Assembly: GCA_014377485.1 (NCBI GenBank)
Contig: JACMPM010000009.1
Coordinates: forward strand, 1 to 64,000
Source of the DNA: Bacteriovorax sp.
GTDB lineage: Bacteria > Bdellovibrionota > Bacteriovoracia > Bacteriovoracales > Bacteriovoracaceae
Reading direction: 5' to 3'
DNA: 64,000 nt
In this document: piece after piece, positions 45,408 to 47,768 of the stretch
How positions within the stretch are numbered: the first letter of the stretch is position 1
Layout of the letters: every line of letters starts with the position of its first letter
The notes under the pieces: generated by a model
What the model saw: the letters and a program-made list of their open reading frames with translations, nothing else
Databases searched by the model: none
Told to the model about the DNA's origin: nothing
Translations under genes and position numbers: made by a program

Positions 45408-45441
45408 TGTTATCTTCCCGTGATGAAAACTTGAATTACTC

Positions 45442-45477
45442 GTCCTGTCCCATTGTGGGACAGGACCTAATTTTTAT
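45442..45477 (+). terminator. Hairpin between the subtilisin gene and rpsF-rpsR
   Basis: GTCCTGTCCCA (45442-45452), loop TTG, TGGGACAGGAC (45456-45466), then CTAATTTTTATT. A good intrinsic terminator. Because it also lies in the leader of the S6/S18 gene, a role in autoregulation cannot be ruled out. Confidence 0.8.
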
Positions 45478-45494
45478 TAGTCCAGGGGGATATT

Positions 45495-46136
45495 ATGATT
45501 TATGAGTTGTCCGTAGTGACAAAGCCAGAGCTAGGAGCAGAAGCTCACGCACAGATCGCAGAGATCGTTAAAGACACATTAAAAGGATTCGAAGGAGAAC
45601 TTTTAATTGCTGACGATTGGGGAAAACTTCACTTAGCACAACCGTATGCTAACGGTTCAAAACACGGTCATTTCCATTACTTTATGTTCAAGTCAAACAC
45701 TCAAGCTAACACTGAGTTGACAAGAAGATTTGGTATCAATGAAGGCGTAATGCGTTCAATGGTTTTTGTTATCGGCGTAGACGCTGAGAAAGAAGAACTA
45801 GCTAAAAACTTCAAATCACCATTTTCAAAAACTCGTAACGGATCTGTTCTTGATAACAAGAGAGAAGACGACGAAGAAGGTTTCGAAGATATGGAAGACG
45901 ATAGAAGAAAATTTGCTAAGAGAAAATCGTGCTGGTTTACAGCTAAGAAAATCAAAGCAGATTGGAAAGATCCTCAAACTTGGAACTGGTTAGTAAGTGA
46001 ATTTGGAAAAATTTCACCTGCTAGAGTTTCAGGAATATCAATGAAACACCAAAGATTTTCTAACTCAGCTATTAAGCATGCAAGAAATCTTGGTATTTCA
46101 AGTTATCTTTCTAACCAAACAGCTGGAAGAGCTTAG
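45495..46136 (+). CDS. rpsF-rpsR: Natural fusion of ribosomal proteins bS6 and bS18
   Basis: 213 residues in one unbroken frame. Residues 1 to about 97 are bS6 (MIYELSVVTKPEL, HLAQPYANGSKHGHFHYFMF, ELTRRFGINEGVMRSMVFVI). A charged linker (DNKREDDEEGFEDMEDDRR) follows. Residues about 137-213 are bS18 (KRKSCWFTAKKIKADWKDPQ, LVSEFGKISPARVSGISMKH, AIKHARNLGISSYLS). S6 and S18 are separate proteins that form a heterodimer on the 30S platform; here they are covalently joined. It heads the S6/S18 - DUF2232 - rplI operon. GGGGG is 5 nt before the ATG. No stop, frameshift site or internal start is evident. Confidence 0.93.
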   Translation: MIYELSVVTKPELGAEAHAQIAEIVKDTLKGFEGELLIADDWGKLHLAQPYANGSKHGHFHYFMFKSNTQANTELTRRFGINEGVMRSMVFVIGVDAEKEELAKNFKSPFSKTRNGSVLDNKREDDEEGFEDMEDDRRKFAKRKSCWFTAKKIKADWKDPQTWNWLVSEFGKISPARVSGISMKHQRFSNSAIKHARNLGISSYLSNQTAGRA

Positions 46137-46143
46137 TTAAAGT

Positions 46144-47157
46144 ATGACAACACCAGAAGTTCAAACCAACAAAGTTTTTGATCAGCGAGCGTCCTTCGGG
46201 AAGCTGATGTTCCTTGCTGTCATCTCTGTTGCTCTATGCTCTTTTGGGCCACTTTCTGTGTTTGCACCGGTTCCATTGATCCTGGCTTTTCTTCTTTATG
46301 GACGATTAACAACATTGTTCATCGGTGGAATTTGTACCAGCGCTCTTTGGTTTGTTTCAGTAAAATATGCCATCCCTCTTGTGATCGCAGGAATGTATTT
46401 AACTGCATTTTTGTATGCCCTCTTGATTGCGGAAGTGATTCTTAGAAATATCAATCCTGTTAAGGGATTAATTTACGCTGGAATTATTTTAGTAACACTC
46501 GTTGGTGGATCGTTGATTGCTTACAATCAACTAGGCAAGGTTTCAGTGAAAGCAGAACTTAATACTTCTGTAGTTAAGCTGATGGCGATGGTAAAAGAAC
46601 AGAATAAGAATAATGAAGCCCTCAATTCAAACGGTGAAGAGGCTCGAATCTTTCAAGATTTCATTTCCAAGCCAGAAGAGCTTGCGAATGAAATTTACAG
46701 TTTCTTGCCGGCGATCATTTTTGTTATTGCCTTTTTTGGTTTATGGATCAGTCTATATATGACTCTTCGTAACTCTGTTATTTGGCGATTCAAGCATCCT
46801 TATTCCTTCAGCTTAAAAGATCTGATTAATTTCAGAGCTCCTGATTTCTTCGTATGGCCATTGATAATATCTCTGGTTTGCGTAGTAGGTGCAGACTACG
46901 GTCTTCCTAAAGCATCTGCTGTCATCGGTACAAATCTTCTTTACAGTTTGGGCGTGTTTTACTTATTTCAAGGATTCGGTGTCTACAATGCTTTTTTAAA
47001 GTATTTAAAGATTGGCGGATTTTTGAAGACTATGTTTGTGGTTTTCACTTTAGTGATGGCCTTCAAATTTTTAGCGATACTAGGAATGTTTGATTTATGG
47101 TTTGATTTTAGAAAATTTTTAACGAACAAAAAAAAGGACGAAGGAGATATATTATGA
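46144..47157 (+). CDS. DUF2232-type polytopic membrane protein
   Basis: A 337-residue protein with about eight predicted helices; hydrophobic N-terminal half (KLMFLAVISVALCSFGPLSV), a soluble central segment (about 135-180) and a hydrophobic C-terminal half with FQGFGVYNAFLKYLKIGGF, the conserved DUF2232/YybS ending. These proteins often sit between rpsR and rplI, as here, and their function is unknown. It starts 7 nt after the fusion gene and overlaps rplI by 4 nt. Confidence 0.85.
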   Translation: MTTPEVQTNKVFDQRASFGKLMFLAVISVALCSFGPLSVFAPVPLILAFLLYGRLTTLFIGGICTSALWFVSVKYAIPLVIAGMYLTAFLYALLIAEVILRNINPVKGLIYAGIILVTLVGGSLIAYNQLGKVSVKAELNTSVVKLMAMVKEQNKNNEALNSNGEEARIFQDFISKPEELANEIYSFLPAIIFVIAFFGLWISLYMTLRNSVIWRFKHPYSFSLKDLINFRAPDFFVWPLIISLVCVVGADYGLPKASAVIGTNLLYSLGVFYLFQGFGVYNAFLKYLKIGGFLKTMFVVFTLVMAFKFLAILGMFDLWFDFRKFLTNKKKDEGDIL

Positions 47158-47768
47158 AAGTTATTTTAACTGAAAAAGTTCCATCTGTTGGAAACATCGG
47201 TGAAATCGTTAACGTATCAGCGGGTCACGCTAGAAACTATCTAGTGCCAAATGGCCTTGCAATGGTTGCTGACGATTCAAACAAAAACCTATTAGCCGCT
47301 CAACAAAAAAGTCTTGCGAAAAAAATCCAAGCTCAAAAAGATGCAGCTAATGAATTAAAAACAAAAATCGAAGGTATGACTATCGAACTTATTAAAAAAG
47401 TTGGAGCGTCAGGAAAGCTTTTCGGTACTGTAACTAACGCTGAACTTTCAAAAGAACTTGAAGTGCGCGGAGTTGAAGTAGAAAGAAGATTAATTCACCT
47501 TGAAGCGCCGATTAAAGGTCTTGGAATTTTCAATGCAAAAGCGAAAATTTTCCAAGATGTAGAAGCGACTTTCAAAGTTCGTGTTTCAATTGATCCTAAA
47601 CAAGCTGAAGAGCTAAAAAGAAATCAAGAAGAAGCTCTAAAAAATGCTGAAGCTAGAAAGAAAGCTGCTGCTGAAGCAAAAGCTAACGGAACAGCTGATG
47701 TTGTTGTTGCTGAATTGACTGAAGAACAAAGACTAAAAGCTGAAGTAGATAAGCTTTTAAGATCTTAA
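47154..47768 (+). CDS. rplI: Ribosomal protein bL9 with C-terminal extension
   Basis: A 204-residue protein (usual bL9 about 148). N-terminal domain MKVILTEKVPSVGNIGEIVNVSAGHARNYL is diagnostic, followed by the long connecting helix and the C-terminal domain (ASGKLFGTVTNAELSKEL, RRLIHLEAPIKGLG). The last about 50 residues are an extra Ala/Glu/Lys-rich helix. It bridges neighbouring ribosomes and affects frame maintenance. It overlaps the DUF2232 gene by 4 nt. A 12-bp hairpin lies between it and dnaB. Confidence 0.96.
   Translation: MKVILTEKVPSVGNIGEIVNVSAGHARNYLVPNGLAMVADDSNKNLLAAQQKSLAKKIQAQKDAANELKTKIEGMTIELIKKVGASGKLFGTVTNAELSKELEVRGVEVERRLIHLEAPIKGLGIFNAKAKIFQDVEATFKVRVSIDPKQAEELKRNQEEALKNAEARKKAAAEAKANGTADVVVAELTEEQRLKAEVDKLLRS

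Follow-up and report, generated by a model that had tools for sequence, protein, structure and literature searches.

Ribosomal proteins that interact nearly always have separate genes, and a fusion of two adjacent 30S proteins that is their sole copy throughout a bacterial class is unusual. Such a case is presented by positions 45495-46136 (forward strand) of a 64,000-nucleotide stretch of Bacteriovorax DNA, which is called the window in the following. One stop-free frame of 213 codons (213 aa) at this position contains bS6 and bS18, both of them complete. The locus raises the question whether the two are made and used as one polypeptide, and how such a protein came about. We consider it very probable that it encodes a single-protein fusion with normal S6 and S18 folds, which would be placed in the 30S subunit, would exert feedback on its own synthesis as a single chain and would have originated inside the Bacteriovoracia. 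This explanation as a whole builds on direct observations, namely the single frame, its uniqueness in the genome, class-wide conservation, selection on the linker, a covarying leader and the cysteine pattern of S18.

Complete bS6 and bS18 in one reading frame

A preliminary description of this DNA had proposed that one 213-codon frame holds complete bS6 and bS18, and this was borne out by the translation and by Pfam matches. Ribosomal_S6 (PF01250) is found at residues 3-91 with 60.4 bits at a gathering cut-off of 27, covering positions 2-89 of the 90 profile positions, and Ribosomal_S18 (PF01084) at residues 151-201 (47.9 bits, cut-off 21). From NCBIfam, the S18 model TIGR00165 scores 49.3 bits, above its cut-off of 38.75, and the S6 model TIGR00166 gives a full-length match with 40.6 bits, slightly under the equivalog cut-off of 42.9. 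The fold and the gene context support S6.

An AlphaFold model was built from 46 fused sequences and has a mean pLDDT of 80.5. In a fold search with residues 1-118, its bS6 part aligned to solved S6 chains with Z 14.5 and an rmsd of 1.4-1.5 Å over 102-104 residues; for 8cgu_F, the S6 chain of a 30S structure, the values were Z 14.5 and 1.4 Å over 102 residues. As judged from the model, the first 110 residues or so adopt the S6 fold. The S18 half is modelled with less confidence (blocks of 51-86 pLDDT), and the assignment of the C-terminal half to S18 is based on its sequence. Residues 123-133, the acidic core of the linker, have pLDDT values below 50 and are predicted to be disordered.

The source genome (3.95 Mb, 98.85% complete) is a draft in 147 contigs. 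A profile search of the whole genome yielded a single match each for S6 and S18, in both cases the fusion ORF, and this ORF is the sole source of bS6 and bS18 in the genome. A functional bS18 encoded elsewhere, which had been named beforehand as an observation that would overturn the fusion, was therefore not found. The start codon is preceded by a strong Shine-Dalgarno sequence, AGGGGG, with a pairing energy of -9.4 kcal/mol. The gene order of fusion, DUF2232 gene and rplI (Table 1) is comparable to rpsF-priB-rpsR-rplI of E. coli, minus priB. In a scan for defence systems, the fusion protein gave no match.

Table 1. Features of the fusion locus in the window
Feature	Position	Strand	Details and evidence
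leader RNA element, match of model R1	45425..45497	+	53.5 bits, sole match in genome
leader hairpin	45442..45466	+	10-bp stem 45442-45451/45457-45466, loop 45452-45456; covaries across class
CC and Shine-Dalgarno	45482..45489	+	CC 45482-45483, then AGGGGG 45484-45489; CUC 45439-45441 could pair with it
rpsF-rpsR fusion gene	45495..46136	+	bS6 residues 1 to ~97, linker ~98-137, bS18 ~138-213; profile searches
bS6 domain	45495..45785	+	Pfam match; AlphaFold model aligned to solved S6 chains
charged linker, Asp/Glu-rich core DNKREDDEEGFEDMEDD	45786..45905	+	translation, pLDDT, dN/dS
bS18 domain, single Cys (Cys146), K194 and R197	45906..46133	+	Pfam match; alignments of fused homologues
DUF2232 membrane protein gene	46144..47157	+	7 bases past the stop of the fusion
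rplI (bL9)	47154..47768	+	overlaps end of DUF2232 gene

Distribution of the fusion

The spread of the fusion, for which a genome search had been suggested from the outset, was determined in 129 genomes of the Bacteriovoracia, a predatory group made up of Bacteriovorax and its relatives. An S18 match is present in 118 of these genomes; the state was read from the open-frame columns. In 110 of the 118, a single frame of 203-252 codons encodes both S6 and S18. One further genome (G120) is fused with the gene cut by contig ends, one (G110) was assigned to neither state, and six genomes from five genera (G019, G058, G059, G060, G064 and G071) have separate S6 and S18 frames. In a recheck based on HMMs of our own, 140 loci were fused, including several from the same genome fetched twice, and they encode 91 distinct proteins. 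Fused genes are also present in isolate records (NZ_AUNE01000006.1, NZ_AUNJ01000465.1), the isolates including Bacteriovorax sp. BSW11_IV and DB6_IX, and the named records carry labels such as Bacteriovoracaceae, Halobacteriovoraceae and Bdellovibrionales.

No S6-S18 fusion was seen among the listed matches outside the class. Elsewhere in the phylum, the S18 frames among these matches have at most 167 codons. In other phyla, with about 140 further bacterial genomes covered, none was seen among the best ~150 S18 matches listed, so that rarer fusions could be missed. The longest listed S18 frames from outside the class (G509, G374, G459, G443, G453 and G497) were inspected, and none is an S6 fusion. 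In a search of the openly accessible literature, no publication on such a fusion was found, and the PDB sequences listed as matches are separate S6 or S18 chains, none having both in one chain. Two known proteins with known roles are here joined covalently in one bacterial class, accompanied by a missing S18 metal site and by a divergent leader RNA.

Two side observations were made in the survey. One fused genome (G074) has a second, separate S6-like gene of 189 aa (L230) on a 4.4-kb contig (C102), possibly a contamination. Seven genomes of the same phylum that are more than 90% complete (G174, G177, G277, G242, G227, G197 and G150) gave no S18 match at E <= 0.001, G174 being a single-contig assembly; S18 in these genomes is perhaps lacking or strongly diverged.

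The linker and the translation product

Across the 91 distinct fused proteins, the linker measures 22-45 aa by our own script; its length always differs by whole codons, and the frame is never lost. The linker had been described as acidic and rich in Asp and Glu. This holds for the core DNKREDDEEGFEDMEDD, but the linker overall carries both signs, with a mean of 6.7 D/E and 7.9 K/R. In the genus of the window, the pooled dN/dS is about 0.14 for the linker, compared with 0.12 for the S6 domain and 0.065 for the S18 domain. Thus, the linker is read as protein and is under selection at the protein level.

Mean Shine-Dalgarno pairing energies were -10.0 kcal/mol for real starts, -3.4 kcal/mol for ATGs in the linker and -2.3 kcal/mol for background. 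An ATG is present in 47 of the 91 linkers, and any start codon combined with an SD-like 4-mer in only six. Since the linker is under selection and its internal ATGs lack ribosome-binding sites, one protein of about 24 kDa is the expected product, which would probably stay intact in the cell.

Three other readings of the product were weighed against this one. That the frame arose by a frameshift, by misassembly or from a pseudogene might be suspected in a draft of 147 contigs, and a frameshift or assembly error had been listed in the preliminary description as a finding that would refute the fusion. The same frame is shared by 110 of the 118 class genomes, isolates and near-complete assemblies among them, and by 91 distinct proteins. 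Frameshift and misassembly are rejected because the frame is conserved class-wide and the linker varies by whole codons; in addition, purifying selection and the lack of any other S6 or S18 copy in the genome argue against an artefact, whose probability we regard as negligible. Additional synthesis of free S18 from an ATG in the linker appears very improbable. In the window, the frame contains an ATG at 45891 that could serve for it, its SD-like pairing being weak (-5.5 kcal/mol), but such ATGs are missing in nearly half of the linkers, and their mean pairing lies near background; the anticipated objection of a separate S18 start is thus not sustained by the SD energies. Finally, the fused protein could be a precursor that is cut in the acidic linker to give ordinary S6 and S18, the fusion then setting only the ratio of synthesis. 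This is unlikely, though less so than internal initiation. It would agree with the predicted disorder of the linker core and with the presence of RimK and a RimB-like protein, which act on a free S6 tail in Pseudomonas (see below); the 22-45 aa linkers show no obvious conserved cleavage motif, and the Glu runs and the distribution of RimK described in the following speak against it.

RimK and RimB in genomes with a fused S6

RimK adds Glu residues to the C-terminus of S6 in E. coli and Pseudomonas, and in Pseudomonas this tail is trimmed by RimB, which requires about 5-6 contiguous Glu (PMC11957791). The window genome encodes RimK (464 bits, cut-off 331), and a RimB-like retropepsin gene (PF05618) adjoins the RimK gene on contig C69 (locus L073, 1029-2403). 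The RimB-like motif also lies beside RimK in G004, G021, G038, G119 and G123. In the class survey of 129 genomes, RimK was above cut-off in 67 and undetected in several fused genomes. It was also undetected in five of the six genomes with separate genes, so that its presence does not depend on whether S6 ends freely.

The longest Glu run in the fused linkers is 1-2 residues in 87 of 91 and at most 4. Cleavage of the fused linker by RimB was rejected in view of these short runs. The kept RimB/RimK pair is a loose end, because the C-terminus of S6 is not free in the fusion. RimK either acts on a different substrate here, as has been suggested for other bacteria (PMC11957791), or something frees the S6 tail.

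A covarying leader RNA upstream of the fusion

The stem of the leader hairpin has seven consensus pairs, and 95.7% of its cells are paired. In 69 cells both sides are changed, compared with 20.6 in shuffles. The covariation score of 0.670 compares with 0.213 in shuffled alignments, and it drops sharply in controls with slid partners. The elements follow in the order hairpin, A/U spacer, CC and SD, with C in 34/38 and 38/38 sequences at the two positions. The SD and the CUC 5' of the hairpin can pair over 3 bp in 96.5% of cells and might form an H1-type helix; the columns are nearly invariant.

From the window alone, the hairpin followed by CCTAATTTTTATT could plausibly be the intrinsic terminator of the preceding gene. 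This reading was dropped, since relatives retain the covarying hairpin without the T run. The Rfam model RpsF_leader (RF02893) did not match the window leader at the gathering threshold, whereas the E. coli control scored 110 bits; ROSE_2 was the best weak Rfam match (17.9 bits vs 65) and was treated as chance. Judged by its layout, the fusion leader may represent a variant rpsF leader, and membership in RF02893 is not claimed. Our leader model also matches upstream of S6 in G071 and G064, where the genes are separate, so that the element may predate the fusion. In two other genera with separate genes (g21 and g22; L017 and L053), a different-looking hairpin is located at about the same position.

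The E. coli rpsF leader has the same order of hairpin, AAU-rich stretch, CC and SD, and translation from it is repressed by the S6:S18 complex. K60 and R63 of S18 are expected to contact the two cytosines, and full repression requires both of these residues (PMC4647458). Their equivalents in the fusion, K194 and R197, are invariant in both alignments of fused homologues (A1 and A2). According to the preliminary description, the fusion must alter the S6:S18 autoregulation. We do not follow this claim: as the rpsF-like structured leader and the K60/R63 equivalents are kept, feedback of the known S6:S18 type, exerted by a single chain, is the simpler reading.

Absence of the S18 zinc motif and probable history of the fusion

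The S18 part had been noted to contain a single Cys. This is correct, the residue being Cys146, and the window S18 lacks the zinc-type CX2C...CX2H motif, which is zinc-binding in the ribosomes of Mycoplasma pneumoniae and M. tuberculosis (PMC11791143). The motif is absent from every fused S18 examined; only its first Cys is left, mostly as SCWF[S/T/K]. E. coli S18 also has a single Cys at this place (RKFCRFTAEG). Among bS18 proteins in general a single Cys is nothing out of the ordinary, and it carries information only in comparison with the unfused members of the class. Four of the five unfused genera keep CX2C...CX2H (SCWFCAKK...GLCAKHQR), the exception being G071. Since separate genes with zinc-type S18 are also present in other classes of the phylum, this arrangement is probably the ancestral state. 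An association between fusion and loss of the zinc motif is suggestive and not proven, as there are few independent events.

On a RpoB-RpoC tree of 55 genomes, the fused genomes do not form one clade, and the fusion state needs three changes; constraining them to a single clade is not rejected (p-AU 0.114). In G019, G058, G059, G060 and G064, the S18 gene has a start codon of its own. In G071 (L057, minus strand, around 2800), a frame of the fused type is broken by a single in-frame TAA in the linker; fused relatives have EKDRR at this site, and the TAA stands in for its E. The S18 domain of G071 lacks a preceding ATG, GTG or TTG, and rpoB and rpoC of this genome contain no in-frame TAA. The break could be a sequencing error, a site of readthrough or recent.

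These data allow for a different history, in which the fusion predates the diversification of the class and the separate genes are secondary splits. The three changes on the tree are in line with it, as is G071, which resembles a fused gene interrupted by one TAA and whose S18 has no start codon. One origin of the fusion stays compatible with the tree, however, the separate-gene lineages with zinc-type S18 look ancestral in view of the other classes of the phylum, and the remaining S18 genes start on their own. We regard repeated fission as rather unlikely, but clearly less so than a processed precursor. This alternative concerns the history and not the product and is otherwise compatible with our explanation. 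Under the preferred history, the fusion would have arisen within the Bacteriovoracia from separate neighbouring genes.

A model for the function of the fused protein

We propose that the fusion ORF is translated as one protein of about 24 kDa that stays intact. Its halves would fold as ordinary bS6 and bS18 and occupy adjacent sites on the 30S platform, like their counterparts in other bacteria. They would be bridged by a flexible charged linker that corresponds to the former C-terminal tail of S6 and the former N-terminal tail of S18. In other bacteria the heterodimer is formed before rRNA binding; here it would be pre-formed and obligately 1:1, with a presumable effect on assembly. When present in excess, the fusion protein probably binds the hairpin and the CC beside the Shine-Dalgarno sequence and thereby represses translation of its own mRNA. 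As a more far-reaching idea, the peptide tether might have replaced a metal- or tail-dependent stabilisation of S6-S18, with loss of the zinc site co-evolving, perhaps repeatedly, and the single chain both assembling and repressing itself via a divergent leader. We consider this possible, though on the whole doubtful.

The fusion is a natural experiment on whether assembly and regulation require ordered formation of the heterodimer, free termini (glutamylation of the S6 tail, the N-terminal tail of S18) and a zinc site in S18. It also opens a simple test, as a single purified protein should do what two proteins do in other bacteria.

Comparison with known systems

The human mitoribosome, too, has an additional physical connection at its S6-S18 interface, namely a single [2Fe-2S] cluster to which bS18m contributes three Cys and bS6m one (PMC11791143). 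The link in the fusion is a peptide linker instead, and its S18 has one of the three Cys. Zinc-type bacterial bS18 with CX2C...CX2H is carried by most unfused relatives in the class, whereas the fused S18 keeps the first Cys only. With RpsF_leader RF02893, the fusion leader shares the hairpin, the A/U stretch, CC and SD before rpsF as well as complementary bases 5' of the hairpin; it differs in being unmatched by the Rfam model and in its putative SD-pairing helix, whose consensus comprises no more than 3 bp and is nearly invariant.

A bS18 with an N-terminal domain of the RNA-binding type is also encoded in two genomes of other bacterial phyla (L231 in G509: RRM_1 1.8e-23, S18 1e-26; L232 in G374: RRM_1 6.8e-23, S18 3.1e-24). 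RRM and S6 belong to the same ferredoxin-like fold class. In these fusions, however, the partner is RRM_1, and both genomes have a separate S6 gene.

Another close system is the bS6-bS18 heterodimer of the 30S subunit in E. coli and T. thermophilus. In contrast to this pair, the fusion is one polypeptide, with no priB between its parts and neither a free S6 C-terminus nor a free S18 N-terminus. It shares with the pair both full proteins, the S6 fold predicted by the model, the equivalents of the RNA-contacting Lys and Arg of S18 and the operon neighbourhood with rplI.
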